DNA of 64,000 nucleotides from Puia sp. (lineage in GTDB: Bacteria; Bacteroidota; Bacteroidia; Chitinophagales; Chitinophagaceae). The stretch is taken from assembly GCA_031292515.1 (NCBI GenBank), contig JARLGZ010000066.1, forward strand, positions 1 through 64,000, read 5' to 3'. This document shows, piece after piece, positions 23,366-51,433 of the stretch. Made by a program: the position numbers and the translations under genes. The notes under the pieces were generated by a model, which did no database searches, was not told where the DNA came from, and worked only from the letters and a program-made list of their open reading frames with translations. Position 1 is the stretch's first letter. The number at the start of each line of letters is the position of its first letter.

Positions 23366-23418
23366 TTGCCCCTTTATTGCCCCTTTGAAGCTTATTTTGC
23401 CCCTTTGTTGCCCCTTTG
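23366..23418. repeat. Four copies of TTGCCCCTTT
   Basis: ttgccccttta ttgcccctttg aagcttatt ttgcccctttg ttgcccctttg at the 3' end of the AlbA_2 gene and just past its stop. Confidence 0.8.
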
Positions 23419-25926: not shown

Positions 25927-25988
25927 ACAAAGAATCTCCCTACCCGGGGCGGCAGGGAGATATGTGTGTACAATAAAATATCGGAAAT

Positions 25989-26157
25989 CACTCCCGCACC
26001 ACTGGCTCCAGTCTTCCCGTATCGAAAGCCTCAGTACCCCGGCTTCCGTACACGGGCACTCTCTGCCGCACTGTTGCCGCTGGCCTTCCCGTGTCGAAAA
26101 CCTTAATCCCTGGGCTTCCGTACATTGGCACTCCCTGCCGCACTATTGCCGGCTGCT
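25989..26157. repeat. Imperfect tandem repeat of about 73 bp (about 2.3 copies) at the 3' end of a lipoprotein gene
   Basis: cttcccgtatcgaaagcctcagtaccccggcttccgtacacgggcactctctgccgcactgttgccgctgg versus cttcccgtgtcgaaaaccttaatccctgggcttccgtacattggcactccctgccgcactattgccggctg, plus a partial copy. Confidence 0.75.
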
Positions 26158-26882
26158 CGCCGAGCCGGCGCCGTTCCGGGTATGACTCCGTAGCCAGTAG
26201 CCGTATAAAACTTATTTTGCGTTAGGCCATCGACCAGGCGATCGAGGTCGAAGAGAAGGGTCGTGTCGCAGGATTCAGAGTCCGGAGCGATGACCACGTT
26301 ACCATCGGTGCCGGCCACCCGCTTCGTATCCCCGATGGGCTCTGGGTTGTCGTTCCTCATTGCGATAATGGCTGGCGGATGCCCACCGGAAAGGCCTCCG
26401 GCCAGGCCGCCTGTCGGGGGTACCGAAAGAAAGGGCTGGCGGGATAATCCGCTTGCATTGTATGCCGTCGTCGTCCGCGCCCTATCCAGCTCCCCAGTGG
26501 CCCATACGCCCAGCTTATTGCCGACGATGATGACGGACGCTTTCAGGGGTAGGAAATCCGGATCGGTTTCCACCACAAAAAACCGGAAGGGCAGCGGATT
26601 GCCTGCCACCGGCAGGCGGAGGAAAAAATTTCCGGTTGGGGAGGGATCCAATGCTGCCCGGGAAAAATCCAGACTATCGTATTGCCCGATGGTCAGACAG
26701 TTCTTCAAATAGTGCATTACGGAATCCAGTTGCTCGCCGGGCCGATGAAAATAAACAGCCAGCTCCGTATTGAGTCCCTGGCTATTCTTGCTGCAAGCAA
26801 TCATCGCTGTCTGAAACAAGGCCGCTGTCAATATCACCGCTAGCCACCCCCTTTTATTTCCGTGTTTCAAAAAATGTTTCAT
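26103..26882 (-). CDS. Lipoprotein, N-terminal-domain-only member of the tandem family
   Basis: 259 aa. Lipobox MIACSKNSQ and LDSVMHYLKNCLTIGQYDSLDFS...GNFFLRLPVAGNPLPFRFFVVETD; lacks the C-terminal domain. Confidence 0.75.
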   Translation of the reverse strand: MKHFLKHGNKRGWLAVILTAALFQTAMIACSKNSQGLNTELAVYFHRPGEQLDSVMHYLKNCLTIGQYDSLDFSRAALDPSPTGNFFLRLPVAGNPLPFRFFVVETDPDFLPLKASVIIVGNKLGVWATGELDRARTTTAYNASGLSRQPFLSVPPTGGLAGGLSGGHPPAIIAMRNDNPEPIGDTKRVAGTDGNVVIAPDSESCDTTLLFDLDRLVDGLTQNKFYTATGYGVIPGTAPARRAAGNSAAGSANVRKPRD

Positions 26883-26938
26883 GTGGAAACTTGTTGGAAA
26901 AATTCTGCTGTTATAAAAAATTATCGCTTATCGAACAC

Positions 26939-28354
26939 TCAGGGCGCCGTAGTCAGCCCTGCCGTGCCTCCGCCGGTTACGGCACTGCAATTGCCGCTGC
27001 CCTTCCCGACACTGGAAGTCCCCGCTGGATTGGCAGTTATACCGGCTGCGCCCATTTTATTGAGTGTATTCATCATCGTGTAGAGGCCATTTGACGTATT
27101 TGGATTAAGCGGGCCATTATTCAATAAGTCAAAAGCAGGATCGAGATTCGGTTGTCCCGTTGTCTGATAAAAAAAGTCGTAGGCGAATGAATTCCCATTG
27201 AACGTGTTGAAGTTGTAGGCCGTTTGGCTCAATGTTTGGAGCAGGGCTTCCGCTTGTGCAAAAGAGGCCGCGGAAATTTGAACGGTATAGCTGGCGCAAT
27301 AGGATGCATACTGCATATCCACCAGCATCCCCGGAGTCGAATACCCCTGGAGCGCCACAGCCGCGCTCGCAGGTGCAAAACCAATATATTGACTATCGCC
27401 GGATCCTCCGGAAGCCACACGTAGTCCAATAAAGCTCTGACCGATGTACCCATTGGAAGCCGTAACGGTGTTTGGATCGCTGGTAGGCAATGCGGTATAG
27501 AGCGTAATAAAATAGGTGTTATTCGCAAGCTGTGTTGCATACTGATCCAGGCAACCGAGATACCCTTTTATATTGATTGCGGGTTTTTCCGCCTGCGGGA
27601 GCACGGCGTAGGGGTTGACCGTGCCACCGGGTCCGCCCGATGATGAGTAGCTTCCCGATGAACCTCCATCCATAAGAGCCCCAAGATCCATGTAATAAGT
27701 GCCCTCTTCGGCGGTTGTCATGGGTGCTTCAATGAGAATGTCGGGAAGGGTCTCACCCGTTCCGTCAAAATCGCTGTCGGTGGTCTTATCACTGGCGTCT
27801 GACGCAATCGTTCTATCCGGGTGCAAAGCCGTTACAAAGCCACTGATTACCGGAGAAACGTACACCGTGCTCCCATTCAACCAGGTCTTCGTGATTATTC
27901 CGTTAGCGGCGGGAAGAGAACCGGATACGGCGTTTGCCGGGGTGATGGTTAGCTGGATCAGAAAGCCGGCGGCCTTTAAAGGCATCAATCCCTGTGTCGT
28001 CTCCACCAGGAAAAAGCGTCGGGAGACCGGATCGCCGAGGCTGGGCAACCGCAGGAAGAGGTTACCGGAACTCGCGGTGTCAACGATGATATCCGGGAAC
28101 TCCAGGCTATCATAGGCGGATGGGGACAGGCTGTCCCGGAGATAGGCTTTTACCGTATTCAAGGCGCTGCTCTGCGCCAGGGTCGGGTAGATCGGGCGTG
28201 CTGCCAGATTTTGTTGTGTTTTGGAACAAGAAATCGCGACAATCAACAGAGATATCGTCGAAATCAAAAAATATAAAATACGTGGCTTACGAATAGTATG
28301 ATAAAGGGAATGTTTCATGGCTATACTTTTTAAAATATTTGTACTTGCTTTCAC
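26939..28354 (-). CDS. Tandem-family lipoprotein 1
   Basis: 471 aa. Lipobox, DSDFDGTGETLPDILIEAP, IGQSFIGL, FNGNSFAYDFF. Confidence 0.85.
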   Translation of the reverse strand: MKASTNILKSIAMKHSLYHTIRKPRILYFLISTISLLIVAISCSKTQQNLAARPIYPTLAQSSALNTVKAYLRDSLSPSAYDSLEFPDIIVDTASSGNLFLRLPSLGDPVSRRFFLVETTQGLMPLKAAGFLIQLTITPANAVSGSLPAANGIITKTWLNGSTVYVSPVISGFVTALHPDRTIASDASDKTTDSDFDGTGETLPDILIEAPMTTAEEGTYYMDLGALMDGGSSGSYSSSGGPGGTVNPYAVLPQAEKPAINIKGYLGCLDQYATQLANNTYFITLYTALPTSDPNTVTASNGYIGQSFIGLRVASGGSGDSQYIGFAPASAAVALQGYSTPGMLVDMQYASYCASYTVQISAASFAQAEALLQTLSQTAYNFNTFNGNSFAYDFFYQTTGQPNLDPAFDLLNNGPLNPNTSNGLYTMMNTLNKMGAAGITANPAGTSSVGKGSGNCSAVTGGGTAGLTTAP

Positions 28355-28391
28355 TAAAAAGGAATCATTTGTTTGGCCGTAAAGGCCCTGT

Positions 28392-29813
28392 TTACAATGT
28401 CAATGTGCTCTGCCCCGAAGTCGGCCCTCCGCCGCAATTTCCGTGGCTGGTACCGACCTGTCCCTGGGAGGATGGGTTGGCGGAAGCACCGGGGGTGGCT
28501 TTGGCTGCCAGGTTTGCGATGGCCATGTACAAGCCGTTGGGGGAGGAGATCGTCGACCCCGATATGTCTTCCATCGGAACCACGTTTAGCCCCCCGGCTC
28601 CGATCTGCGGGTTGTTAAAAATCTGGCTTATGAAATCGGTGCTGTTGAATTCATAAGGCGAATACTGTAAACTCGCGTCGTTGAGCATGGTATTTTCCAG
28701 GACCGCGAACTGGGCGGCCGTGATATTCTTGCTATAGCTGGCGTTGTAGGCGGAACCGCTCATATCTGCAAATTCCGAGGGCGTTTGGCCGGTTCCCTGC
28801 ACGCAGGAGGGGCATCCCGAATAGAAGCAGATATATTGCGTGGTCGTTTGACCGCCGGCTGTCTTCGACAATCCCAAAAAGGCATTTCCCAGGGGCGCCT
28901 GACCGACCGTCTTGTATAACATGGCGTTTGGGTCGCTTGTCGGAATAGAGGCATAGGCTGTCAGCGTGTAGGTGACGCCGGCAGTCGTCAACGCTCCAAA
29001 ACACCCAAAATAGCCCCGGAGGTTGATCGCCGGTCTTACCGTCGCCAGGTCAACGGGGAAGCCCAACAGGGACACCCCTCCGCTGTTACTCGATGTGTAA
29101 GCGCTTGTCCCGCCCCCGCCTTCTATCCATTCACCCAGGTCCATGTAGTACATCATTTGTTCATCGTCGGCGTAGGGTGCCTGGATCAGGATATCGGGCA
29201 GTGTTTCCCCCGTGCCGTCGAAATCGCTGTCGGTCGTCTTGTCCGTTGCATCTGCACCTACTGTTTTCGTCGGATGGAGGGCAGTCGTATACCCGTTCAC
29301 TACGGCGGAAGAATACACCTGGCCACCGTTCAGCCAGGTTTTTGTGACGGTCCCATTGAAGGCGGGTGAACTCCCCAGGAATAAGGCTTTTACCGCGGAA
29401 GATCCAGTCGACGGAAGAGCCGGAAAGACAGCTGTCTGTGCGACCAAAAATCTCGCTGCTTTTAACGGCGTCAGTTCCGGGGTGGTTTCTACGACAATAA
29501 ACCGCCTGGTGACCGGATCGCCCAGGCTTGGAAACCGCAGGAAAAGATTCCCCGTGGCCGTGCTATCAACCAGCATGTCGGAAAACTCCAGGCTGTCATA
29601 GGCGCCCGGAGAGAGGCTGTCTTGCAGGAACAGTCTTACCTGGGCAAGCGCCGGGGATTGAATCAGGTTGCTGTCGCCTGTTCCCGCCGCGGGGAAGTGC
29701 GCATTCTTACTACAAGAGAGGACCGCCAAAGTTAGCAAGACAATCGTCAAAAAAAATGGAAAAATGGGAAGGGTTGCTATTTTTAAATTCAGAAACCTGT
29801 TAATTTGTCTCAT
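28392..29813 (-). CDS. Tandem-family lipoprotein 2
   Basis: 473 aa. DSDFDGTGETLPDILIQAP, LGNAFLGLSKTAGGQTTTQYI, VGTSHGNCGG. Confidence 0.85.
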   Translation of the reverse strand: MRQINRFLNLKIATLPIFPFFLTIVLLTLAVLSCSKNAHFPAAGTGDSNLIQSPALAQVRLFLQDSLSPGAYDSLEFSDMLVDSTATGNLFLRFPSLGDPVTRRFIVVETTPELTPLKAARFLVAQTAVFPALPSTGSSAVKALFLGSSPAFNGTVTKTWLNGGQVYSSAVVNGYTTALHPTKTVGADATDKTTDSDFDGTGETLPDILIQAPYADDEQMMYYMDLGEWIEGGGGTSAYTSSNSGGVSLLGFPVDLATVRPAINLRGYFGCFGALTTAGVTYTLTAYASIPTSDPNAMLYKTVGQAPLGNAFLGLSKTAGGQTTTQYICFYSGCPSCVQGTGQTPSEFADMSGSAYNASYSKNITAAQFAVLENTMLNDASLQYSPYEFNSTDFISQIFNNPQIGAGGLNVVPMEDISGSTISSPNGLYMAIANLAAKATPGASANPSSQGQVGTSHGNCGGGPTSGQSTLTL

Positions 29814-29871
29814 GTCAATTGGTGTTTATGGATTGTTGTTGAAAAATTTCTGTTTGCTGGTCAGGTCCTTA

Positions 29872-31263
29872 TCAGGGAGCCAGAGAGAGGCCTGCACCCG
29901 TTCCGGTCGAGCCGCCACAATTCCCGTGACTGGCCCCCACGCTACTCCGGCTATTTGTATTGGCAAAGGCTCCCGGAACTTTTTGCGCCTGCAGGCTTTG
30001 TATATAGAGAAAGAGTCCATTGGGGGTTTCTATGGGACCTAAAGTGGGATCGGTAAGCTCCGGAGGGAAAAAATCCGATACCGCCGACCCGAAAGCGCTA
30101 TAAGCAAAATCACTGCTATTGGCATTCCAGGAGTTGAAATAGATGCCACTGTACATCGTTATATCGTCGGCGGCAAACTGAAATTGTTGCGCCGTTACCG
30201 AAACGGAATAGCTCGCATTGTAGGCGGACCCTCCCATATCCAGTATGGCGCCGGGTACCGGTGGGCTGCCGGCTCCATAAGCGACCGCCGGTGCGAAGCC
30301 AAAATATTGCGTGAACGTTTGCCCGCCGGAAGACTTTGTCAACCCGATAAAACTTTCACCCGTCGCGCCGTTTGTACCGGTCAGCACCGATGGGTTGGTG
30401 GTGGGGATCGACGCATAAATGGAGAGGGAATAGGTGGCCCCGGTGTTTGATATGAGACCGAAACAGCCGAGGTATCCTTTCAGGTTGATGGCGGGTCTGG
30501 CGGACAGGGCCGGATTCCCCAACATAGCGATAGAGGCGCCGCCTGATGCCGGTTCATAGAGGCCCGTACTCCCTCCCTCATCAATCATTTCACCCAATTC
30601 CATATAGTAGATCACCTCGTCGCCCGCCAGGGGCGCTTCGATGAGAATATCGGGCAATGTTTCCCCCGTCCCATCGAAATCACTGTCAATGGATTTATTA
30701 CTCTCTGCCGCCGCTGCCGACTTGTCAGGGTGCAGCGCCAGGATATAACCGTTTGCTACCGGAGATGTATAGGCTACCCTTCCATTCAACCAGGTTTTCG
30801 TCACCAACCCATTGAAACTGGCTGCCGAACTAGAACCTGCCATTGCCGCGGTGGTGTCCCAGCGGATGAAAAAGCAGGCGGCCTTTAGCGGTACTCCTCC
30901 CGGCGTCGTCTCTACCAGCACAAAGCGCCTGGAGACCGGATCACCCAGGTTGGGGAATCGCAGAAAGAGGTTCCCGTTTGTAGCCGTATCGACGATCACC
31001 TGGGAAAACGCCAGGCTATCATAAGCGCCCGGTGAAAGGCTGTCCTTGAGAAATAGGTTCACCCTGGTCAATGCAATTGCTTTGACCGTACTTTGATCGG
31101 CGGATGCCCCCGAACGCGGCTTTCCGTCTTTCGTACAGGATAGCAGGGCTATATTTAAAAAGGCCGTCGTCAGCAGGAGAATGCCGATCGATAGGAAAGT
31201 CAAAAACTTACGAAATGGTCTCATATCTTTTACATTTAACATGAATGAATTACTCGGTCTCAA
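29872..31263 (-). CDS. Tandem-family lipoprotein 3
   Basis: 463 aa. Same architecture; VGASHGNCGG C-terminus. Confidence 0.85.
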   Translation of the reverse strand: MRPSNSFMLNVKDMRPFRKFLTFLSIGILLLTTAFLNIALLSCTKDGKPRSGASADQSTVKAIALTRVNLFLKDSLSPGAYDSLAFSQVIVDTATNGNLFLRFPNLGDPVSRRFVLVETTPGGVPLKAACFFIRWDTTAAMAGSSSAASFNGLVTKTWLNGRVAYTSPVANGYILALHPDKSAAAAESNKSIDSDFDGTGETLPDILIEAPLAGDEVIYYMELGEMIDEGGSTGLYEPASGGASIAMLGNPALSARPAINLKGYLGCFGLISNTGATYSLSIYASIPTTNPSVLTGTNGATGESFIGLTKSSGGQTFTQYFGFAPAVAYGAGSPPVPGAILDMGGSAYNASYSVSVTAQQFQFAADDITMYSGIYFNSWNANSSDFAYSAFGSAVSDFFPPELTDPTLGPIETPNGLFLYIQSLQAQKVPGAFANTNSRSSVGASHGNCGGSTGTGAGLSLAP

Positions 31264-31286
31264 AAGCTCCTCTGCGCCGGCCGGGA

Positions 31287-32651
31287 TCAGGGCGCAGTCG
31301 TCAGTCCCACAGCTCCTCCGGTGGATCCCCCGCAGTTTCCATGACTTGCCCCTACACTGGACTGGGAAGTCGCGTTGGCATATGCCCCCGTCGCTCCCGT
31401 GGCTGCTTTTTGTTCAATAGCCAGAAAGATTCCGTTTGGCGTCAGGGCGGTACCTGCCCCTGGGACGAGATAAGCACCCAGCCCGGTTGCATCCACGTCG
31501 TTGAAACTGTCAAATGCGAAATCGCTACTATTGGACAAACTCTGTTGATAAGGTCCGGTAGAAGATGTTCCGAGATAACTTATCAGATCGTTAAACTGGG
31601 CTTGGCTGATCTGTATAGTATAGCTCGCGTTATAGGCCGCCCCGCTCATATCTACCATCTTCGAGGCTATCGCCTGTCCATTGGAGGCGCAGGCGTCGCA
31701 GACGGGGAAAAATCCGAAATATTGGTTTGTTTGCTGGGATCCCGACGTCATTGAGAGTCCGATAAACGCCTGGCCGGGAACACCGGCGCCATTTGTCAAT
31801 ACAGTAGGGTTACTGGTCGGGATAGAGGCATAAATGGTTACCGAATAACGTGCACCGGAGGTCGGCAACAGACCGAAACAGCCGAGGTATCCTTTCAGGT
31901 TGATGGCGGGTCTTGCGGACAGGGCCGGATTCCCCAACATAGCGATAGAGGCGCCGCCTGATGCCGGTTCATAGAGGCCCGTACCCCCTCCTTCTTCAAT
32001 CATTTCACCCAATTCCAAATAGTAGATCACTTCGTCGCCCGCCAGGGGCGCTTCGATGAGAATATCGGGCAATGTTTCCCCCGTCCCATCGAAATCGCTG
32101 TCAGTGGATTTATTACTCTCCGCGGCCGCCACCGATTTGTCAGGGTGTAACGCCAGGATATAACAGTTTGCTACCGGAGATGTGTAGGCTACACTTCCAT
32201 TCAACCAGGTTTTTGACACAAACCCATTGAACATCGGCATCGACGGGGAGCTTGTCGTGGCAGCGGCCGTGTCCCGGTGGATGAGAAAGCAGGCGGCTTT
32301 TAACGGTATCCCTCCTGTGGTCGTCTCCACCAGCACGAAGCGCCTGGAGACCGGATCACCCAGGCTGGGGAATCGCAGAAAGAGATTCCCGTTTGTAGCC
32401 GTATCGACGATCACCTGGGAAAACTCCAGGCTATCATAGGCGCCGGGAGAAAGGCTGTCCTTGAGAAAGGGGTTCACCGCGCCCAGTGCCTTTGTCTTAT
32501 TTATACCGCCGTTGGCGGATTCCGCAGAGAAAGTCTTCCCTTGTTTGTTGCAGGATACTAACGCCGCGACGATCAGGAAAACTACCGGAAAAAAAATAGC
32601 AAAATTGACAACGGATGAGATCGAATGAAAGAATCTATTGAAGGGTGTCAT
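31287..32651 (-). CDS. Tandem-family lipoprotein 4
   Basis: 454 aa. Central region nearly identical at DNA level to lipoprotein 3. Confidence 0.85.
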   Translation of the reverse strand: MTPFNRFFHSISSVVNFAIFFPVVFLIVAALVSCNKQGKTFSAESANGGINKTKALGAVNPFLKDSLSPGAYDSLEFSQVIVDTATNGNLFLRFPSLGDPVSRRFVLVETTTGGIPLKAACFLIHRDTAAATTSSPSMPMFNGFVSKTWLNGSVAYTSPVANCYILALHPDKSVAAAESNKSTDSDFDGTGETLPDILIEAPLAGDEVIYYLELGEMIEEGGGTGLYEPASGGASIAMLGNPALSARPAINLKGYLGCFGLLPTSGARYSVTIYASIPTSNPTVLTNGAGVPGQAFIGLSMTSGSQQTNQYFGFFPVCDACASNGQAIASKMVDMSGAAYNASYTIQISQAQFNDLISYLGTSSTGPYQQSLSNSSDFAFDSFNDVDATGLGAYLVPGAGTALTPNGIFLAIEQKAATGATGAYANATSQSSVGASHGNCGGSTGGAVGLTTAP

Positions 32652-32719
32652 ATTATTTTTCTTTTAGCAGAAATGGAGTGATTATTTTAAAAGCGAGTCT
32701 TATTCAACACAGCGTTACC

Positions 32720-34096
32720 CTAGGGCGCTGGCGTCAACCCTGGGTACCCGGCAACTGTTCCTCCGCAGTTACCGTGGCTGGAGCCGACGACGGATTGTAC
32801 ATTCGCATTGGTCGTCGCTCCCGGAGCTTTTGATGTGGCTGCATTCTGTATCTCGAAAAAGACGGCATTCGGGGTGCCGGCATATTGGCTGGGTGAATTG
32901 ACGGGTAGCGAAGGCATTGTCAAGTATCCCGGATCAACGCTATTAATGGCGTTAACGGCAAAAGTGCTGCCTGTCGACATGCCCGCCGCATAAGGAGTTC
33001 CCACACTGATCTGGATTTGAAAAAGCAGGGTAGCAAACTGGCCCGCGTTTAGACTCAGGGTATAACTGGCATTGTACGCGCTGCCTCCCATGTCCACTAT
33101 TTTAGACGGTGTGGACGGCAAGCCGGCATCGCAGGGGCAGTCCGGAAAGAAACCGATGTATTGAGTGGTAGTCCTATTCCCTGCTGTCTTGGACAATCCC
33201 AGGAAAGTTTGACCGGTGCCTCCGGAAGCATTTGATAGGACGAGGGGGTTGCTGGTCGGAATCGAGGCATAAATCGTCACCGAATAGGTAGCCCCTGTGT
33301 TCGGTAAGAGACTGAAGCAACCCAGGTAGCCGGCGACATTGATAGCAGGTTGTTCGTTTTGAAAGCTGGATGGAAAGACCCCGAGGGATGATCCCGAACC
33401 GTTTGCGGATACATAGGTATTCACGGCCCCCTCTCCGCTATCGAATATTTCCTCCAGATCCAGGAAATAGGCGTCTCCTTCTTCACCCGTAGGAGCGGTG
33501 ATGACGATCTCCGCCAGTTCCTCGCCGGTACCATCGAAATCGCTATCGGTGTTTTTTTGCGCCAATGCCTCGGTAGAAATACTTCTGGAGGCATTCAGTA
33601 CCGTGATTAAACCATTGACCACTGGAGACGAGTAGACAGTATCTCCCCCCAGAGTCGACCGGGTGATGCTGCCATTAAAGCCCATTACCCTGTTTGTCGA
33701 ATCCGAAGTCTGCAGGTTTATCCCGGGTGTGATCCGAAGCCACGCTGCTTTCAAAGGAACCAGCCCTGGTGTAGTTTCTATGGCGATAAATTGCCTCGAA
33801 ACAGGCACGCCGAGGCTTGGGACCCGAAAGAAAAGATTGCCCGTACTGGCTGTATCTAAGATTATCCTGGAAAACTCCAGGCTGTCATAGGCGCCAGGCG
33901 TGAGGCTGTCCTTTAAAAAGGCTTGAATGGGTTTCAGGACGATCGCGGAGATTCCCGCGCCCGCGGAGCCGGAAGGTTCGTTTTGCGGCGTCTTGCTGCA
34001 GGAGAATAGGATCGCCAGCATCGCCACGGCGATCAGGAGCAAGGCTATCCGCCAGGCTTTGATGGAATGGGTCGTTTCGGTTGAATATCTTTTCAT
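32720..34096 (-). CDS. Tandem-family lipoprotein 5
   Basis: 458 aa. DSDFDGTGEELAEIVITAP, TGQTFLGLSKTAGNRTTTQYIGF, VGSSHGNCGG. Confidence 0.85.
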   Translation of the reverse strand: MKRYSTETTHSIKAWRIALLLIAVAMLAILFSCSKTPQNEPSGSAGAGISAIVLKPIQAFLKDSLTPGAYDSLEFSRIILDTASTGNLFFRVPSLGVPVSRQFIAIETTPGLVPLKAAWLRITPGINLQTSDSTNRVMGFNGSITRSTLGGDTVYSSPVVNGLITVLNASRSISTEALAQKNTDSDFDGTGEELAEIVITAPTGEEGDAYFLDLEEIFDSGEGAVNTYVSANGSGSSLGVFPSSFQNEQPAINVAGYLGCFSLLPNTGATYSVTIYASIPTSNPLVLSNASGGTGQTFLGLSKTAGNRTTTQYIGFFPDCPCDAGLPSTPSKIVDMGGSAYNASYTLSLNAGQFATLLFQIQISVGTPYAAGMSTGSTFAVNAINSVDPGYLTMPSLPVNSPSQYAGTPNAVFFEIQNAATSKAPGATTNANVQSVVGSSHGNCGGTVAGYPGLTPAP

Positions 34097-34193
34097 GTCG
34101 TTGTAATTGGAATGTTTTTAAAAATGAATGCTGCTTTAAAATCTTCCTGCCTCACCGAGACAGGAAGACTCTATCAAACCTCGCGGCTGGATT

Positions 34194-35579
34194 TTAAGGC
34201 GTCAGCCCTGATTGTGTTCCTACGCTTATCGTTCCTCCACAGTTCCCATAGCTTTGGCCCGCGGCGCTCTGTACCGGGGAGGCGGTCGCCCCATCTACGC
34301 CGTCCCATACCAGTTTCGCGATCGCGATATACACTCCGTTGGGAGTAATGCCGGGTGGTGCGATCGGGGTAAGGCTCATATCCGGCACCTCCAGGACACC
34401 GGGCGCCACCAGGTCGAAGACGTCCAGCGCATAAGAGGCGCAGTTATAGTCGTAGAGAGAATAATCCAGATCAGCGTCACTCTCCATTCGGGTCTGGACC
34501 GCGGCAAACTGGTCGGCGGTGACGTTTACCGTATAGCTTGCGTTATAGGGATGTCCTTCGTTATCCACCAGTTTGGAGGTCGTAAAGTTGCCGGTAACGG
34601 CGCACCAACCGCAGGACGCATAAAACCCGATGTATTGAGTGGCCGATTGTCCCCCCGCCGTTTTCGTCAATCCAAGAAAAGTGTGTCCGACGTGCAAGGT
34701 GGATGGGTTGAACATGATATTCGGGTTGCTGGAAGGAATGGCCGAATAAATGGTTACCGAATAAGTTGGATCCTTCCCAGTGAAGGCGTCCAGGCAGGCC
34801 AGGTAGGCCTTGACATTGATTCCGGGTTTCTCGGCCTGCACATCGACCGCATAGACACTTACCGAACTCGACGAACTGCTACCGCCACCGCTGAGGAGCT
34901 GATAGCTCCCCGACCCGCCACCTCCTTCTATGAACACACCTAGGTCGGCATAGAACATCATATTTTCATCATCCTCAAAAGGAGCTTCGATCAGGATATC
35001 GGGTAGTGTTTCCCCCGTGCCGTCGAAATCACTGTCATTCGACTTATCGGCCGCATCGGTGGAAACTGTTTTTGCCGGGTGGAGGACGGTGGCAAAACCG
35101 CTTACGACCGGGGAGGTATAGGCCACGCTACCCTTCAACCAGGTCTTCACGATGGTTCCGTTGAAGCTCCCTGAACTGCGGGTGGACGCCGTGTCCTGGC
35201 CGGTCTGGATGATGCGGATACCGACCGCTTTCAAGGGAATAAAACCCGGCGAAGTCTCTACAAGGAGGAATCGTTTGGAAATCGGATCGCCCAGGCTGGG
35301 AAAACGCAGGTAGAGATTCCCGCTGGCAGCGGTATCGAGCACCCCCTGGGAGAACTGGAGGCTGTCATAGGCAGAAGCCGGGAGACTATCCTGTAAAAAA
35401 TGTTTCACGGAATCCAACTGGCTGGCCTGAATTCCCGGGTAGGATGGACGGGCTACCGCATTCTGCGGTGACTTGTTACACGAAATGGCTGCCGTCAGCA
35501 GCATGATACTCACGAATACGGCGCCCCGTAGGCGAAAACCCCTATGCCTTTTGGGGGTGGATGTTAAAAACTGTCTCAT
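34194..35579 (-). CDS. Tandem-family lipoprotein 6 with candidate intact His/Cys active site
   Basis: 461 aa. VGHTFLGLTKTAGG ... YDYNCASYALDVF, unlike its paralogs. Confidence 0.85.
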   Translation of the reverse strand: MRQFLTSTPKRHRGFRLRGAVFVSIMLLTAAISCNKSPQNAVARPSYPGIQASQLDSVKHFLQDSLPASAYDSLQFSQGVLDTAASGNLYLRFPSLGDPISKRFLLVETSPGFIPLKAVGIRIIQTGQDTASTRSSGSFNGTIVKTWLKGSVAYTSPVVSGFATVLHPAKTVSTDAADKSNDSDFDGTGETLPDILIEAPFEDDENMMFYADLGVFIEGGGGSGSYQLLSGGGSSSSSSVSVYAVDVQAEKPGINVKAYLACLDAFTGKDPTYSVTIYSAIPSSNPNIMFNPSTLHVGHTFLGLTKTAGGQSATQYIGFYASCGWCAVTGNFTTSKLVDNEGHPYNASYTVNVTADQFAAVQTRMESDADLDYSLYDYNCASYALDVFDLVAPGVLEVPDMSLTPIAPPGITPNGVYIAIAKLVWDGVDGATASPVQSAAGQSYGNCGGTISVGTQSGLTP

Positions 35580-35648
35580 GTCTTTTTTTTAAAATGGTTG
35601 AAAAATTTATGGGGAAGGCAGATCCCGGTGCTGATAGTCCGTAGAACA

Positions 35649-37085
35649 TTATTCGGATAGCCCATTTCCGTATTCAGGAGGGGTGCAAGGGCCGTGGCTT
35701 TGGCCTGCCAGCATTTGCGCATTTTGATCCGTATAAATGCTGGTGTTGGCGTTCCCGCTCATTCCCTTGATGGAAGAATAAATGCCGTTCGGCGTTGCTT
35801 CGTCTTCTCCCGGGAGATTCGGGGTAAGCCCCGTGGCCGGCACTCCACTCGAAGTAAAGAGGCCGTACGCCAGGAGAGACTGGTTAAAATCGCTGGCTGT
35901 GTAGTTGTAGCCGCTATAGGAGTTGAGGGCGCCTTGTAAGGCGGTAAAGACGCCTGGACTTATCGTGACCGTAAGTCTTGCATTGTAGGGGGCGCCACTC
36001 ATGTCTACCACTTTGGTCGTCGTTTGCTGGTTGTTTTCCGCACAACTCGCGCAAACCGGTTCAAACCCAAAATACTGGGTGACGGTTTCCCCATACTCTG
36101 TTTTTGATAAACTGAAAAACGTCTCGCCTGTATTCCCATACGGGTCGGTCAATAGGTTGGGGTCACTGGTCGGGATGGATGCAAAAATGCTTATCGCGTA
36201 GGTGGCGTTCAACTCATCAATCAGGTTGAAGCAGGCGAAGTAATTTTTTAACGTAATAGCAGGTAAATCCACCGCACCATTGGAAGGGTTGACCAACAAA
36301 GAAGTGCCCGAACCGTTCGCGGGTGCATAGGTCGTTAGCGACGCGACGCCACCTGTTCCGAGCAGATCCGCTAGATCGATATAAGTGACTTCATCGTCAA
36401 AGACATTGGGAGCCGTAATAATGACCTCGGTGAGTTCTTCTCCCGTTCCGTCAAAATCACTGTCTGTGGATTTACCCGAAACGGCATCCGCTGAAACGGT
36501 CCTGGACTTAGCCAACACCGAGACCACCCCGTTGACCACCGGTGAGGAATAGGCGGTCGATCCATTCAAGGCCAGGCGAGTGACTGTGCCATTAAATCCG
36601 CTGATCGTTCGCGTAGCATTTCCCCCGGATTGAACCGATGCAGTCTGCGCCTGCTCTATCAGGAATTTGGCGGCCTGTAAAGGCAGTATTCCCGGCGTTG
36701 TCAGCACCAGTACAAACCGATGCGCCACCGGGTCTCCGATGCTGGGAATTCGCAGGAATAAGCCGCCTGTGCTGGCGGAATCAACGATCAGGTTTGAAAA
36801 ATCCAGGCTGTCATAAGCCGGTTCGGATAAACTGTCCCTCAGATAGTGTTTCACGGAATCAAGCCGGTTGCCTTGTAAAGTTGGGTACGAGGGACGGGCC
36901 GTCGCATTGGGCTGCGACTTGTTACACGAGATGGCTGCCGTCAGCAGCATGAGACTGAAAAAAAAGAACGCTGTCCAACCGAAGAACTTGCTTGTCCTCC
37001 AGCTTTTCTTTGAGAGATGTTTCATGTTGTTGTATTTTTTAAAATGAAAAAGAAAATGGTTCCCCGGCCCACACCAGGCGGGCAT
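35649..37085 (-). CDS. Tandem-family lipoprotein 7
   Basis: 478 aa. DSDFDGTGEELTEVIITAP, TGETFFSLSKTEYGETVTQYFGF; C-terminus AGQSHGPC. Confidence 0.8.
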   Translation of the reverse strand: MPAWCGPGNHFLFHFKKYNNMKHLSKKSWRTSKFFGWTAFFFFSLMLLTAAISCNKSQPNATARPSYPTLQGNRLDSVKHYLRDSLSEPAYDSLDFSNLIVDSASTGGLFLRIPSIGDPVAHRFVLVLTTPGILPLQAAKFLIEQAQTASVQSGGNATRTISGFNGTVTRLALNGSTAYSSPVVNGVVSVLAKSRTVSADAVSGKSTDSDFDGTGEELTEVIITAPNVFDDEVTYIDLADLLGTGGVASLTTYAPANGSGTSLLVNPSNGAVDLPAITLKNYFACFNLIDELNATYAISIFASIPTSDPNLLTDPYGNTGETFFSLSKTEYGETVTQYFGFEPVCASCAENNQQTTTKVVDMSGAPYNARLTVTISPGVFTALQGALNSYSGYNYTASDFNQSLLAYGLFTSSGVPATGLTPNLPGEDEATPNGIYSSIKGMSGNANTSIYTDQNAQMLAGQSHGPCTPPEYGNGLSE

Positions 37086-41482: not shown

Positions 41483-42340
41483 TCACCTTGCCTTCAACAA
41501 CACCTTCGGTTTCACCCTCAGCAGCAGGGTCCGGCCTCCTTGCGGTTCCGCCACTTCCACTACCAGCACCTTGTCCTGCGCGATCGTAAACGGCTCATAG
41601 CCGATGGCAAAAGTCCGTTGCCGGCGCCCCGGGACGGGGAGAGGCTCCCCGAAAACGGGTAGCAAGTCGATTTGCTGCCGGGTCGTCCGCTTAATCAGCT
41701 TGCGGTCCTCGTAATATAACCGGAAGTGGTCGGGGTCATAACTCAGCTTGGAGCGGTTTGAGAGCGTAAAGACCATCCATTGCAGACTATCTTTGAGATA
41801 GATACCCTCAAGGGACAGCCGCATTTTTTCGTTGCGCTTCGAAATATGGAGAAAATGCTTTTTCCCGATGATTTCGTTTGCATCCCCGGCCAGGGTTACC
41901 CGGTCTGTTGGAATCCCTGACAGCATCACCAGATTGGTATCGGTCTTAGGGGACGCCTGGTGATCGGGGAAGGCGAGGGGCGAGCCCTTGCCGGCGGGCC
42001 AGACAACCCGGTAGTTCAACACGCTTGAATCCTCCGAGTAGTGAATCACGAAAGAGTATAGTTTTCCGTCCCAGCCGTATACTGAGAAATTCGTCGGAGG
42101 AAAATTCCGCCAGTTGGCCTTTAGTTCAATGATATTTTCGACGCCCCTGACCTTTTGGGCCATCAGGGCCTTACTGACGCGGATGCCTGATCGAACCGCT
42201 ACGGGGAAAATCAGGTTCGTCATCTTCTCCATCGTCACGGGGATGGAGTGGGAGGGGATGCCCTCCAGGATAAAGTCGGGTTGCTGGGCCTTGACTTCCA
42301 CATAAAAGCCGACAAAACATAGCAAAATCAAAAATCTCAT
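41483..42340 (-). CDS. traN: Conjugative transposon protein TraN
   Basis: 285 aa. TraN/DUF4138 pattern, KMTNLIFPVAVRSG...NIIELKA. Confidence 0.8.
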   Translation of the reverse strand: MRFLILLCFVGFYVEVKAQQPDFILEGIPSHSIPVTMEKMTNLIFPVAVRSGIRVSKALMAQKVRGVENIIELKANWRNFPPTNFSVYGWDGKLYSFVIHYSEDSSVLNYRVVWPAGKGSPLAFPDHQASPKTDTNLVMLSGIPTDRVTLAGDANEIIGKKHFLHISKRNEKMRLSLEGIYLKDSLQWMVFTLSNRSKLSYDPDHFRLYYEDRKLIKRTTRQQIDLLPVFGEPLPVPGRRQRTFAIGYEPFTIAQDKVLVVEVAEPQGGRTLLLRVKPKVLLKAR

Positions 42341-42351
42341 ATAGGTATTTT

Positions 42352-43746
42352 TTAACGTTTATTGATTCGGGTATTTTTCAGCAGCACCTGCTGACCGGCT
42401 TTTACGCTGACCTTTATCAGCTTCACCTTCCGGCTGACCAGGGTCTTTAGCCCCTGGATGCCCGCCGTCGCCATCTGGGCGCCGAAATTGGGATCGAGAC
42501 TTGCCAGGCCCATTCCGTTGATCGCCTGGTCGGCGGTTTCTTTCGAAACGTCCCGGGAGATGGCGCCGGGCACCCACAGGCCTTCCAGGCCATCGAGGTC
42601 ATAAGCGGACAAGCCGACGGGAAACACATTGTTGCCGACCCGGATTGAGCTAACGGAAATATTCATTCGCTCCCCGTTCACGGTCACTTTACCCGATACG
42701 ATATTGTTCCGGGGAATCTTCACGCCGTTCACCACCGCCTCCTGCAGCAGCCGGAGTTCGCAGATGGCGCCGCTCATCAGGGTGCCGTCCTGGTCGATCA
42801 CCGCCCGGATGGTATTGTCCATCGCAGAATCCGGTTCGTCTTCATCTCCCAGGTCCATGAAACCTCCGCTGGCGGGGTCTGCCGCCGTGGATCTGCCGAA
42901 AGCCTGATCCGGTCGGTCATATGCGTCCTTTCCCGGCCCGTTTTCCCCCAGGGTGTGGATAGCAGTGGCTGCTGCCGGCCTTGATACCAGGGCTGTCTCC
43001 GCACTGACTGGCGCACCCGCTGTATCGCCGCGGGATTCTTCCGGATGCTGAATACGGAGGATCTTGTCGAGGATGGTATTGTATTTTTCCATTTCGGGGT
43101 CGCGGGCGCTGGTATCTTTCCCCGTCTTCGGAGCCAGGGCTTTTTCTAAATAGGCGAGGGGGCTCACCCCGGAAAGCCCACCCGGCGGCGGAGCCCCCGT
43201 GAAACCCTGTGAGCCAGGTCCACCAGCATAACCACCCGGTAGTCCTCCGGGTCCCTTCATGGTATTACCAGGCTGGTTGATTACTTTTTTCAACTGCTCC
43301 AGTTTCTCCAGCACCTTCTCCGCCTGTTTGGAGCCGGGATTTTCTTCCGGAGAAGGGTTGAGATCCTCCTCGGCGTTCGATCCGTGCTTCCTTTCTCCGA
43401 ACCCAAACAAATGGGTAGCCGTATCTTTTTTTCCATTCATCCCGGGAATACGGCCTGTGTAATACGGGTCTGTCCGCATCCGGTCCCGGATATGCATGGA
43501 ATCGATATTGGCCTTGTTGTAAAAACCCAATTTGTCGAGGGATTTTGTGCGTGGGTCGAAGTGCGCAGCCGGCAGCGACAAATTCAGACCTTTGGCGTCG
43601 GAAGAACCGGCAGGATCTTTTTTCTCTCCCTTGCCACCGCCCAGGCCATAAAAGGTGATGCTCATGAAAACGATCATCAGTAATGGCGCGAAGAGGAAGA
43701 ACTTTCGCTGCCGGTAAAATTTTTCGTCCCGTTGTTTCGGTATCAT
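42352..43746 (-). CDS. traM: Conjugative transposon protein TraM
   Basis: 464 aa. FFLFAPLLMIVFMSITFYGLGGG; C-terminal IRAVIDQDGTLMSGAICELRLLQEAVVNGVKIPRNNIVSG. Confidence 0.85.
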   Translation of the reverse strand: MIPKQRDEKFYRQRKFFLFAPLLMIVFMSITFYGLGGGKGEKKDPAGSSDAKGLNLSLPAAHFDPRTKSLDKLGFYNKANIDSMHIRDRMRTDPYYTGRIPGMNGKKDTATHLFGFGERKHGSNAEEDLNPSPEENPGSKQAEKVLEKLEQLKKVINQPGNTMKGPGGLPGGYAGGPGSQGFTGAPPPGGLSGVSPLAYLEKALAPKTGKDTSARDPEMEKYNTILDKILRIQHPEESRGDTAGAPVSAETALVSRPAAATAIHTLGENGPGKDAYDRPDQAFGRSTAADPASGGFMDLGDEDEPDSAMDNTIRAVIDQDGTLMSGAICELRLLQEAVVNGVKIPRNNIVSGKVTVNGERMNISVSSIRVGNNVFPVGLSAYDLDGLEGLWVPGAISRDVSKETADQAINGMGLASLDPNFGAQMATAGIQGLKTLVSRKVKLIKVSVKAGQQVLLKNTRINKR

Positions 43747-43803
43747 GCTGTTACTTTTTGAATTTTAATTTGTATTTGTACTGCTCGGCTTGACAAAAAA
43801 TGA

Positions 43804-44229
43804 TTACGGATTCAATTGATAGAGCTGATGAAGCGTATCCGACAGTCCAGGCCGTACACGTAACAGGCTATCCCACTTTCTCATCAACGAAGTGTCCCGG
43901 TGGATACTGTCCATCATCTCGTAAAAAGATCTACCTCTTCCCCGGGGAGCAGGCATGCGCTGGGTTCTCATTACGGGAGAAGGTGACCATGGGATAGAAG
44001 AGATGGATGCCGGATGGGCGATCGCATGCCAGATCAACAGCCCATTCACCAGGGCAAGTATCGAAATGGTGAGAATGATATACACTTTAAAAGCCATCGG
44101 TGGGATCCTGGCGGATCGCCGCTGTAGCCAGTCACTGATTTTTACCCGCACCATTCTTTCCCGCTCCAAAAAGGTCTTATACCAGTGCGGGAGTTCTTTG
44201 GGGGTTTTCTGCTTTCTCTTAAAAAACAT
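43804..44229 (-). CDS. Conjugative transfer membrane protein at the TraL position
   Basis: 141 aa, one TM, lies between traK and traM. Confidence 0.55.
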   Translation of the reverse strand: MFFKRKQKTPKELPHWYKTFLERERMVRVKISDWLQRRSARIPPMAFKVYIILTISILALVNGLLIWHAIAHPASISSIPWSPSPVMRTQRMPAPRGRGRSFYEMMDSIHRDTSLMRKWDSLLRVRPGLSDTLHQLYQLNP

Positions 44230-44262
44230 GACAAAACGATTTAACTTTTAAAAGAATAGTGC

Positions 44263-44913
44263 TTATTGGCCCTGTCGCGACTCTACTTTAACATCTTTGT
44301 TTTCCAGGATCGACCAACGCTCGATCAAAAAACCGTGGGGGTCATTGTCCGATCGGTTGACATCCCGTAGCCAGCCTTCCGTCACCAGGTCGCGGGTGAC
44401 GGTGCTGGTAGCCCGGGTAATCGTCTCCGTGGCATAGCAGCGGAAATAAAAAGGGTAATTCGTCAGGTTCAGGGAAATGCTGTCGATCGATACCCGCTGG
44501 CTGATATTGGCGCTGACCACGCCACTGTAATAGCCGGATTCCTTTAGGTTGTCATAGATCCTCTTCACGCTGCCGTCAGCCAGGTACATGGCTTTTTTGA
44601 TATTCTCATAGATCATTTTCTCGTCAGGGTCGAGCGTAAAGAAATCCTGCATAAAACTTGTGACGTGCGCGCGGGCTTCGACGGGAATATTCGAGGCCCG
44701 GTCACTGGCGAACGCCTCAAAGGCTTTGCCCGCGGAAAGGATATATACCTTTGCCTCGGACTTCAGGACCATATCGTTTGCCTTGATCACAATGAATACG
44801 CCGAAGCACAGGCTACCCAGGATGGAGACAATGCTCACCATCCTCATTTGTCGAAAAGAAGTCTCGATATTTTTTGCTTTTGGAAACATATCCGTCATTT
44901 TTTCATAAGTCAT
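44263..44913 (-). CDS. traK: Conjugative transposon protein TraK
   Basis: 216 aa from the internal ATG at 44913. MFPKAKNIETSFRQMRMVSIVSILGSLCFGVFIVIKA... RVSIDSISLNLTNYPFYFRCYATETITR. Confidence 0.85.
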   Translation of the reverse strand: MTYEKMTDMFPKAKNIETSFRQMRMVSIVSILGSLCFGVFIVIKANDMVLKSEAKVYILSAGKAFEAFASDRASNIPVEARAHVTSFMQDFFTLDPDEKMIYENIKKAMYLADGSVKRIYDNLKESGYYSGVVSANISQRVSIDSISLNLTNYPFYFRCYATETITRATSTVTRDLVTEGWLRDVNRSDNDPHGFLIERWSILENKDVKVESRQGQ

Positions 44914-44969
44914 GTAAAGAAACCCGCCGGGGTATTGTCCTTCCTCCCTGGCCGTTGCGGTCCGTGCCA

Positions 44970-46064
44970 TCATAACACCGTTGCTGCCATTGCGGCCGAT
45001 TTTATGCTTGTAGAAGCTACCGTGCCGGCTGATTGAGAGGCCGCATTCGTGACCTTTTGCAAATGGGCGCCGCCTGCCGGGAATACGGTGATGATGTGTT
45101 GGGTAATGCTGGGCACCGAGCAGTATCCCACCAGCCCCATACAAAGGAAAACCAGGTAGGCAAGGTCTGTAGCACCGAAGGTGGTCTGCCCGCTGGCTTG
45201 CAATTGCTGGATATCGATCTTTAACATCTGAACCTCCACCTGCCCGATGATGGACCCAAAAATGTTGCAGACCGGCAGCCAAAGGAAAATATGGACGTAC
45301 TTGGCAAACCAGGCGACAACCAGGTGGTGCAACCCATCGAAGACGCTGAGACCCAGGACAAGCGGCCCGACGATGGCGAGCACCACGAGATAGAAGATCC
45401 GGACTGTATTCACGCAAAGGGAAGCCGCCTCAAAGAGGGTTTCTAAAATCTGGGAGAGTACCAGTTTGAAAGAGTTCTTGATATTGTACTCGGCCTTCGA
45501 CATCTCAAACTTCACCCAGTTGCCAAGCCCCGAGAAAACCCCGTTGTCCGTGTTGCCTGTATATTCCGCCCATTTCTCCATGCTGCCATTTCCATCCGGA
45601 CCTACATAGGCCTGCCATTCCTGCCCCTGCTCCAGCAACTGTTGTTTTTGAGCCAGCAGGTTGGCAATGGCCTGGTTGGAATTTTTCACCAGGGCATTCG
45701 TCGCCGTATTGGTAGGCTCCAGGATATCATTCATGACATCGATCAGGGTGGTATAGAAAACCAGGACCACGCCGATCGCGAAGGGTCTTAGCAAGGGCAT
45801 GAAATCGATGGGTTCGGCCCTGCCCAAATGCCCCCAAATCTTGTTGGAGCAGTAGAGCAAAGCCCCAAAGGCAGCGATTCCCCTGGCCACGCCGGTCAGT
45901 TCCCCGCAAGAGGCCAGCATGGTCTTAAAAACGGTAAACAAGCTCTTCTGGACGGTGGTGATATCGCTGGTAAAAGACGAGGTGGTATCCTGGCAGAAGG
46001 CACAGAAGGGTAAAAGGAGGACTATACCCGCCAGCAGGCTGGCGCAGGCAAATGATTTTTTCAT
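44970..46064 (-). CDS. traJ: Conjugative transposon protein TraJ (multi-TM)
   Basis: ORF trimmed to the ATG at 46064 (MKKSFACASLLAG signal peptide); several TM helices, TraJ-type FMPLLRPFAIGVVLVFYTTLIDVMNDI. Confidence 0.8.
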   Translation of the reverse strand: MKKSFACASLLAGIVLLLPFCAFCQDTTSSFTSDITTVQKSLFTVFKTMLASCGELTGVARGIAAFGALLYCSNKIWGHLGRAEPIDFMPLLRPFAIGVVLVFYTTLIDVMNDILEPTNTATNALVKNSNQAIANLLAQKQQLLEQGQEWQAYVGPDGNGSMEKWAEYTGNTDNGVFSGLGNWVKFEMSKAEYNIKNSFKLVLSQILETLFEAASLCVNTVRIFYLVVLAIVGPLVLGLSVFDGLHHLVVAWFAKYVHIFLWLPVCNIFGSIIGQVEVQMLKIDIQQLQASGQTTFGATDLAYLVFLCMGLVGYCSVPSITQHIITVFPAGGAHLQKVTNAASQSAGTVASTSIKSAAMAATVL

Positions 46065-46101
46065 AAAAAAAATTAAAGGAGGATGCGAATCGATCCTCTG
46101 G

Positions 46102-46842
46102 TTATTGAAGCCCGTATTCGGTTTTAAAAAAATTGATATCGTTTTGTTCAACGCCGCGCTGACCGCCCTGGATCACTCCGTTGTTATTAAACGTTCGCAG
46201 GAAGCTGAGTTTATCGGTCATATCCTTGTCCACCCGGTCGATGGCGGCCAGCCTCTCGGCATCGCTCATGCGCAACTGACCGGCTGTAATCACCATCGTC
46301 AACTCCTCGATGTCCCGGAGGCTGCCGTTGAACAGGTTTGTATACACCGTGCTCAGATAATTCAGTTCGGCGGACGAGAAGTACCCGTTTTTCTGGAAAT
46401 AACTATTGGCGGATTGGTATTCCTTCACTAGGGTAGCCTCGTTGTTGATGATATTGGCGATTTTATAGTAGTTGCTTACCGCCGGCGAGACGGCCAGCAG
46501 GGCGTCCAGAAAGGCTTTGTGCAGGTTGAAATTTCCCTGGCTGATGCTTTTCACGTCCTCATACCCCTTGTAGATGATCGTGTAGGCGTTGTACATATCC
46601 GTCAGAATCTGCTTCATCTGGGCCAGTTTCTCGTAATCCAGGGTCAGTTGGGTGATATCGTCGGCAAGCGACTGGGCGCGTAGGGGAGCGTAACCCGACA
46701 ATAGGATCAGCGCCAGGAGGACGACCGTTCTCCGACAGCCAGTCAGGCGACGGCTACCCGGAACCCTCATCGGATGGTCCGGCGAAACCGTTGATTGAAC
46801 CGGCAACCACCTGCTTTGCTTACTCTGTGGAATGGTTTTCAT
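46102..46842 (-). CDS. TraI/TrbJ-like conjugation protein, copy 1
   Basis: 246 aa. IEELTMVITAGQLRMSDAERLAAIDRVDKDMTDKLSFLRTFNN. Confidence 0.65.
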   Translation of the reverse strand: MKTIPQSKQSRWLPVQSTVSPDHPMRVPGSRRLTGCRRTVVLLALILLSGYAPLRAQSLADDITQLTLDYEKLAQMKQILTDMYNAYTIIYKGYEDVKSISQGNFNLHKAFLDALLAVSPAVSNYYKIANIINNEATLVKEYQSANSYFQKNGYFSSAELNYLSTVYTNLFNGSLRDIEELTMVITAGQLRMSDAERLAAIDRVDKDMTDKLSFLRTFNNNGVIQGGQRGVEQNDINFFKTEYGLQ

Positions 46843-46876
46843 TTTTTTTATTTTATAGGTGTTCTTGTCGTTACTG

Positions 46877-47557
46877 TCAGGGCAGGCCGTACCAGGTCTT
46901 CAGATTTCCCAGGTCCGCTTGACCGGATAATCGTTGCTGGCTCAGCAATTCCGTTCGGTTGGTGAAATTCTCCACAAAAGCGTACTGGTCTTTGACACGG
47001 GCATCGAGGGCCTGGATCGAACGCATGCGCTGGTCGTCCGACATGCTGTAGGAGTTCGCCGTCAGCAGCGTGATCAGGGCGCCTACATCGGCTTCGGAGG
47101 CCGAGGTGATATTCGAAAAAACCTTGCCCACATAGGCGAGGTCCCCGGCACTCAGTGATTTACTGTTTGTCCAACTGCTGATCGCGGTGGAAAACTTCTC
47201 GATGATGACGATCTGGAGCGCAATGATCTCTGCTACTTCCGCCATGCTGGCCACAGCGGGGTTGATCTGTTCGAGCGAGGAGATAAAAGCGCTGTGAATA
47301 TTGAAATCGCCGTTTTTGATGGTTTTTATCTCCTGCCATCCGCTCTCGATTACCTGGTAGCCCTTCTCCAGTTTGCTGATGTACAATTTCATGGCGGCAA
47401 TTTGCTCGCCATAGTATTCCAGCATAGAGCTGCTTTGCGAGAAGATATTGCTCAGACCCTGGGCGCGGGCGCCGGCTCCCCCGATCAATAGGACAAATGC
47501 TAAACCCACCATTTTTTTCATCATTGTAATTTTTAAACGATTCATACTTCCATCCAA
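46877..47557 (-). CDS. TraI/TrbJ-like conjugation protein, copy 2
   Basis: 226 aa. Paralog: LITLLTANSYSMSDDQRMRSIQALDARVKDQYAFVENFTNR. Confidence 0.65.
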   Translation of the reverse strand: MDGSMNRLKITMMKKMVGLAFVLLIGGAGARAQGLSNIFSQSSSMLEYYGEQIAAMKLYISKLEKGYQVIESGWQEIKTIKNGDFNIHSAFISSLEQINPAVASMAEVAEIIALQIVIIEKFSTAISSWTNSKSLSAGDLAYVGKVFSNITSASEADVGALITLLTANSYSMSDDQRMRSIQALDARVKDQYAFVENFTNRTELLSQQRLSGQADLGNLKTWYGLP

Positions 47558-47582
47558 TCACTGCTCAACAAAGCCCGGTTGC

Positions 47583-48263
47583 TCAGGGAATCCCATACAG
47601 CGCTTTTGTCGCCAGGATATCATTACTATCCTGGGCCCGTTCCAGGCTCAGCATGGTATTTCGTTGGGAAAATGTCTGGAGATCGGAATAGTTCTTGTCG
47701 ATCCGGCTTCCTGCCTCATCAATGATCCGGAGCCGGTCGGCATCCGCCATTTGCGTGAGCAGGGCCGTGATGACCAGGTCGATCTGGCTGAGGTTGTTGA
47801 CGCTTTGCTGCATGATTCCGTTCAGGACCCGGTACATGCCGGCGACTTCATCGGCCGTAAAGTGGCTGTCTTTTTGAACGGCCGCGTAGGACTGCTGGTA
47901 GCCCGATACGACCGCCGCTTCTTTGGCGATCAGGTCTTTCACCCGGTCGTAGGCATTGATAGCGTTTTTGATCTCCCACAATTCTTGAAAATAATTGGCG
48001 TAGAGGTCTTTGGTTTGTTGTACCCAGCTGGTGATATCGCCCAGCTCGGATTGCTGCATGGAATTGTCGAGGTCCTTTTCGGTGTTCTGTAGACCGAGTG
48101 TTTCCACTTCGGCCTTCTGAACCGCCAGGTCCAACGCGACTACCACCTTCTTCGCTGCAGCATTGATGATCGAGATGATGTCCAGGACCTGCGCGTCGGA
48201 TCTCGCCGGCGTCATCATCGCCAGCAATACTATCGGTATCGCATATATTAGATTATTTTTCAT
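47583..48263 (-). CDS. TraI/TrbJ-like conjugation protein, copy 3
   Basis: 226 aa. Paralog: IDLVITALLTQMADADRLRIIDEAGSRIDKNYSDLQTFSQRN. Confidence 0.65.
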   Translation of the reverse strand: MKNNLIYAIPIVLLAMMTPARSDAQVLDIISIINAAAKKVVVALDLAVQKAEVETLGLQNTEKDLDNSMQQSELGDITSWVQQTKDLYANYFQELWEIKNAINAYDRVKDLIAKEAAVVSGYQQSYAAVQKDSHFTADEVAGMYRVLNGIMQQSVNNLSQIDLVITALLTQMADADRLRIIDEAGSRIDKNYSDLQTFSQRNTMLSLERAQDSNDILATKALYGIP

Positions 48264-48373
48264 TTTATTGCGTTTTTGTGTCGATCGACTGTCATTGTTC
48301 TATCGCTTAGTCCAGGGTGGCTTATTTGATTCTCGTCGGGTAACGTATTCCGCTTAGACTTCGTTTCCCGATC

Positions 48374-48553
48374 CTACGGCAGGTCTTCCAGGCATTCCAA
48401 CCGGTCCGTATAATGAGCCAGCGTCATAGGGTCCTTTAGGGAAGCAATTTCCTTCTCCACCGTCTGGCGCTCTTCCTCCGTCAGTGGCCGGCTTTGCTCG
48501 TTATCCAGGTTATACACCGCCCAGCAATCGGCGAATTTTCGGATACAATACAT
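48374..48553 (-). CDS. Small hypothetical ICE protein (59 aa)
   Basis: Hand translation MYCIRKFADCWAVYNLDNEQSRPLTEEERQTVEKEIASLKDPMTLAHYTDRLECLEDLP*, just under the ORF-track cutoff. Confidence 0.65.
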   Translation of the reverse strand: MYCIRKFADCWAVYNLDNEQSRPLTEEERQTVEKEIASLKDPMTLAHYTDRLECLEDLP

Positions 48554-48645
48554 GGTCCTCTATTTTTTGCGTTACTCATTCCGTTTCTGTAAATCAGCCT
48601 TTCTCTTATTTGTTCAGCATGCGATCTCCCTCTTTGTGACCCATC

Positions 48646-51111: not shown

Positions 51112-51433
51112 AGCTTGTGAATAGTTTTATGTATACTTTCCTCGATTTTGAAATGATGGCTTTTGGAACCGCTTTTCTCGCCGATTTTTTCATGAGGCCA
51201 TACTGGCCATACTTCTTGCTCATGGCGTAGATGAGACGGATCAACCAGGCCCCCACGGCCAATACCAGCACCAGGCAGATAACCGGGTTGATTCCGCACA
51301 CATACATGATGGCAAAGGACACCAGCAAGCCAATCACGGCGCCCGCCAGGAGCCAGATATACTGTGCCTTCAGACCCTTAAAGACAATCGGTCTGTTGAT
51401 GCCCTTGTTGACTTTATATGCTTTACTCATCAT
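51092..51433 (-). CDS. traF: Conjugative protein TraF (DUF4133)
   Basis: 113 aa. YKVNKGINRPIVFKGLKAQYIWLLAGAVIGLLVSFAIMYVCGI. Confidence 0.85.
   Translation of the reverse strand: MMSKAYKVNKGINRPIVFKGLKAQYIWLLAGAVIGLLVSFAIMYVCGINPVICLVLVLAVGAWLIRLIYAMSKKYGQYGLMKKSARKAVPKAIISKSRKVYIKLFTSYAGRTH

Follow-up and report, generated by a model that had tools for sequence, protein, structure and literature searches.

A conjugative-element region in the window (the whole 64,000-nt stretch of Puia sp. DNA analysed here) carries a tandem array of lipoprotein genes in which one copy keeps the putative catalytic residues of its C-terminal domain, while six other full-length copies have lost them and retain most other conserved positions. 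The explanation that we consider probable is that a conjugation-linked envelope hydrolase or acyltransferase was amplified and then re-used as a set of non-catalytic binding lipoproteins; its activity, its substrate and its roles in conjugation and binding are those that we infer from the comparisons below.

The lipoprotein array

Eight consecutive ORFs run head to tail along the minus strand between 26103 and 37085, seven of them full-length (454–478 aa) and one encoding an N-terminal part only (259 aa). All eight encode a lipobox, bearing out the tandem array of related secreted lipoproteins that the sequence-only reading had described. The residues given below are those at positions 299, 340 and 380 of the 461-aa copy.

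25934..25961, minus strand: terminator-like hairpin with an 11 bp stem, just 3' of the array (terminator scan)
26103..26882, minus strand: diverged N-terminal-only copy, 259 aa, without the C-terminal domain
26939..28354, minus strand: pseudoenzyme copy, ORF of 471 aa, likely start MKHSLY; His to Gln, Asn to Met, Cys to Gly
28392..29813, minus strand: pseudoenzyme copy, 473 aa; His to Asn, Asn340 to Met, Cys to Ser
29872..31263, minus strand: pseudoenzyme copy, ORF of 463 aa, likely start MRPFRK; His to Glu, Asn to Met, Cys to Ser
31287..32651, minus strand: pseudoenzyme copy, 454 aa; His to Gln, Asn to Met, Cys to Ser; predicted structure m80551d31f52c
32720..34096, minus strand: pseudoenzyme copy, 458 aa; His to Gln, Asn to Met, Cys to Gly
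34194..35579, minus strand: lipoprotein copy with intact residues, 461 aa; His299 (34683-34685), Asn340 (34560-34562), Cys380 (34440-34442)
35649..37085, minus strand: pseudoenzyme copy, ORF of 478 aa, likely start ~37025; His to Glu, Asn to Met, Cys to Gln

The other full copies are 41–47% identical to the 461-aa copy and the 259-aa copy 28%; the closest pair of neighbours reaches 63%. In a whole-genome search the full copies match each other with E-values of 1e-94 to 1e-112, a likeness far beyond chance, and their shared blocks recur every ~1.4–1.5 kb, start to start, along the array. The likely starts of two copies (MRPFRK... and MKHSLY...) lie 3' of the listed TTG/GTG, and that of a third (MKHLSKK...) lies 3' of its first ATG. 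The 259-aa protein, possibly a decaying remnant, shares the N-terminal domain common to all eight but lacks three motifs that had been ascribed to the whole family, DSDFDGTGE(T/E)L, ASIPTSNP and the C-terminal motif. The last of these, given as GxSHGNCGG, reads GQSYGNC, GQSHGPC or GKGSGNC in three copies. DSDFDGTGE, found in 7/7 full copies (27721-36474), resembles a DxDxDG calcium-binding loop and did not turn up in the aligned relatives.

The strict Bacteroidetes promoter pattern has no match within the array. Terminator-like sites such as that at 25934..25961 are no more frequent overall in the scan than in shuffled sequence. A further terminator-like hairpin (TCTTCCTG...CAGGAAGA followed by TTTT) lies at 34096-34194, shortly 3' of the intact copy, and is not among the sites of the scan.

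Each protein has the signal peptide and lipobox cysteine expected of a Bacteroidota lipoprotein: a hydrophobic leader is followed by invariant Cys34 and Lys36 (8/8), with N, S or T between them. Their designation as surface proteins is one of two possibilities. No acidic export signal was seen by eye after the lipobox cysteine of the array proteins, and signals of that kind are not known to be established for this group; judged from the residues after the cysteine, a periplasm-facing location thus appears equally possible. A diversifying family of surface antigens or adhesins, the view implied by the sequence-only reading, would be in keeping with divergent lipoproteins that are encoded in an array and recombine with one another, but we consider it quite unlikely, since neither a surface-export signal nor switch elements were seen and the relatives, which often sit in tra operons, keep the catalytic residues.

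Putative catalytic residues and the class of the C-terminal domain

Among relatives in which the region is covered, 55/55 have the His and 55/56 the Cys, neither of which varies across an alignment of 50 relatives; at position 340, 56/56 have Asn or Asp. Within the array, only the 34194-35579 copy has all three residues. His and Cys are each absent from the remaining full copies (0/6), all six of which carry Met at position 340. Of 15 positions at least 90% conserved among the relatives, only His and Cys are gone from all six copies; the other 13 are retained in 71/78 cases, and Cys262, Cys447, the lipobox and most conserved positions persist in 6/6. Loss of the predicted catalytic pair with retention of structural positions argues that the array comprises one putative enzyme and six pseudoenzymes. 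Two further relatives are encoded in the same genome, a full-length one on contig C211 and a short one on C85, and both have His and Cys.

Six copies without catalytic residues and one reduced to an N-terminal piece might also reflect neutral or decaying duplication, in which function was lost and the copies persist by chance. We regard this as very unlikely, because six long ORFs remain free of stops despite mostly saturated synonymous divergence and because the lipobox, Cys262, Cys447 and most of the conserved positions are kept in every pseudoenzyme. Wherever dS could be computed, dN/dS is 0.09–0.44; as dS is saturated between most copies, ORF integrity and the retained structural residues carry most of the case for purifying selection.

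Convergent but weak matches point to a circularly permuted NlpC/P60 (papain-like) domain as the probable class of the C-terminal part. The conserved His299 precedes the conserved Cys380, an order that fits the permuted form. Scans against Pfam, NCBIfam, PHROGs and PADLOC placed the array proteins in no family above cut-off. Among 50 scanned relatives, 12 match PPPDE/Peptidase_C97 (best E 1.6e-5), 13 Lnb_N/DUF4105 (best 7.7e-4, E up to 0.1), nine DUF4796_C and three LRAT (best 1.1e-4); where its position was given, the matched stretch lies around the Cys motif, and all bit scores given are under the curated cut-offs. For PPPDE/Peptidase_C97 the score was 22.5 bits against a gathering cut-off of 29.2 (relative L009), and for Lnb_N/DUF4105, with members scanned singly, 12.1–16.4 bits against 22.2.

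The profile search with the aligned family that had been proposed was run against all PDB sequences and returned only weak matches, to TseH (6v98, E 0.3) and PPPDE1 (3ebq, E 1.9), both of which align at the Y...NC motif on the catalytic Cys. A profile of the array proteins alone matched only antibody fragments in the PDB (E 0.05 or worse), which we judge to be chance. TseH is also the top PDB match, again weak (probability 0.66, E 0.13), of the predicted structure of a dead copy; that of the intact copy gave no usable fold match among PDB entries and viral models. Both predictions are of modest confidence (mean pLDDT 61–62), with much of the C-terminal domain above 75. One permuted NlpC/P60 group, some members of which act on lipids, includes TseH, LRAT, YiiX and DUF4105 as clades (PMC12994826), and the permuted part of the NlpC/P60 cluster takes in C97, C92 and LRAT (PMC10318531). 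The function, which had been called unknown, is thus narrowed to a domain probably of permuted NlpC/P60 type, intact in one copy and, by its residues, catalytically dead in six.

Each of the closest known systems shares part of this picture. The Bacteroides lipoprotein N-acyltransferase Lnb (Lnb_N/DUF4105) has a permuted NlpC/P60 domain that the 13 relatives match, the scores given lying below the Pfam cut-off, whereas the array family is lipid-anchored, has another N-terminal domain, is tra-linked and, within the array, has mostly lost its catalytic residues. TseH and the permuted NlpC/P60 phospholipase/acyltransferase effectors are likened to the family by the motif alignment and the fold match, both with weak E-values; the array family differs in its lipid anchor and in its frequent place in tra operons. 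PPPDE/Peptidase_C97 (DeSI) has the same permuted order of His and Cys and gave E-values down to 1.6e-5, yet its known members are deubiquitinases and desumolyases (PMC10318531), and the family scores given lie below cut-off.

Linkage to conjugation genes

The array is inside the conjugative-element region, as its position between the tra genes (41.5–54.6 kb) and a tyrosine integrase (17.4–18.3 kb) indicates, and not next to an ICE as had been proposed.

17366..18349, minus strand: tyrosine integrase (PF13102, PF00589), on the far side of the array
41483..51433, minus strand: tra operon with TraN (DUF4138), TraM, TraJ, TraG/VirB4 and TraF/VirB3-like genes
48646-51111, minus strand: TraG/VirB4, in the tra operon
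51092-51433, minus strand: TraF/VirB3-like DUF4133, in the tra operon
51715-52047: TraE-like ORF, upstream of the tra operon
54577-55395: RteC, upstream of the tra operon

Neither flanking genes in the genus nor direct repeats revealed the ends of the element. Several other genes of the region stand out. The adjacent minus-strand genes 18440-19321 and 19419-20354 have in common a 197-nt repeat (72% identity) and a like start region (46 nt, 83%) and appear to be a tandem duplication; no Pfam match was obtained for the first. A Schlafen/AlbA_2 protein with a RecG-like C-terminal domain (23392-24738) shows similarity to the pAgo and Aga models of PADLOC. A PAPS-reductase-like gene in the element (38739-39518) matches the SspD defence model (E 4.6e-17) and adjoins two DNA methyltransferase-like genes.

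Linkage of the family to conjugation genes extends to other genomes. A TraG/VirB4 gene stands within 20 kb of 27 of 79 family loci, where 0.84 were expected and the maximum in 20000 simulations was 6. Elsewhere the family gene is often a single gene of a tra operon, in the recurrent order TraE > gene > TraF > TraG in several elements of the same genus and gene > (g52) > TraE > TraF > TraG, on the same strand, in many other genomes. In the window's own tra operon no family member was found at the corresponding position. At one locus (L072, G023:C104, 9276-10979) the frame of the family gene runs on into the VirB3-like TraF, through either a natural fusion or a lost stop codon. For most family loci no TraG gene stands within 20 kb, in part owing to short contigs, and the role of the family may therefore not be confined to conjugation.

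An element-encoded envelope enzyme would have a parallel, in the way it works only, in the CwlT/VirB1-type cell-wall hydrolases of conjugation, which are canonical, not permuted, NlpC/P60 enzymes. An envelope enzyme of the CwlT/VirB1 type is needed for conjugation, as PMC11753425 reports in citing DeWitt and Grossman (2014).

The family occurs mainly in Chitinophagaceae and only seldom in the rest of the class. No clustered array like this one was found in ~500 other genomes sampled, with the best four candidates per genome scored at family level and the best eight at class level; the idea of an expanded lipoprotein family gains support from this, none of the 32 genomes of the same genus or the sampled genomes of the family having a comparable array. 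Viral contigs, plasmids and phages yielded no relatives.

Divergence and possible use of the inactive copies

The seven full copies form one clade (support 100/100). In the free tree the neighbour of the intact copy is the 26939 copy; a tree holding the pseudoenzymes together as a single clade is slightly likelier and is not rejected by the AU test (p 0.64). Together with the common Met340, this fits one ancestral catalytic loss followed by duplication.

The 31287-32651 copy resembles the 29872-31263 copy over residues ~57–265, a tract that covers the N-terminal half and stops at the domain border. Within it nucleotide identity is 83–100% in most windows, dipping to 65–77% around residues 115–135, whereas ~40–60% is usual in the signal region and in the C-terminal domain. 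The tract is supported by a permutation p of 0.0005, the floor of the test, and dS is 0.20–0.39 inside it against 2.35 in the C-terminal domain, a difference in dS that stronger selection on the N-terminal half would not by itself explain and that argues for exchange between copies. A leader block, residues 24–60, is common to the 34194 and 35649 copies, with its permutation p also at the floor.

We favour the following course. The family protein would be a conjugation-linked, lipid-anchored protein of the envelope, encoded by a single tra-operon gene in many conjugative elements, with a signal peptide and lipobox in front of an N-terminal domain that a linker joins to the permuted NlpC/P60 domain; it may cut or transfer an acyl or amide bond in the envelope (of lipid, lipoprotein or peptidoglycan) at the site of the mating pore. 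In the present element the gene would have multiplied at the cargo end to give the array, in which one copy (34194-35579) stayed a potential enzyme, and the ancestor of the other six probably lost its catalytic residues before duplicating further. Those six would have been kept as folded, non-catalytic, probably ligand-binding lipoproteins, their N-terminal parts recombining between copies while the C-terminal domains diverge. Retention for binding is the most likely reason for the persistence of the dead copies.

A possible use is exclusion or immunity: dead copies in the envelope would bind a partner, substrate or product, either that of the intact enzyme or one belonging to enzymes of other elements, and thereby shield the host cell or keep related elements out. 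The link to mating-pore genes, the structural residues kept in the dead domains, the exchange of N-terminal halves alongside diverging C-terminal domains and the presence of antibacterial effectors among related permuted enzymes (PMC12994826) all speak for such a repertoire. We nevertheless hold it to be rather unlikely, as no partner or cognate was identified, no likeness to a known exclusion protein was found and catalytic death does not by itself imply immunity. That the element turned its own mating-pore-linked enzyme into recombining dead lipoproteins directed against related elements seems unlikely.

A literature search found no published description or name for the family to which the array belongs; on the favoured reading, this points to an unremarked envelope enzyme in the tra operons of Bacteroidota conjugative elements. 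With one intact and six dead copies side by side, their structural residues retained and N-terminal halves exchanged, the array offers a natural series on which to test the re-use of dead enzymes by mobile elements as binding or exclusion proteins of the envelope.
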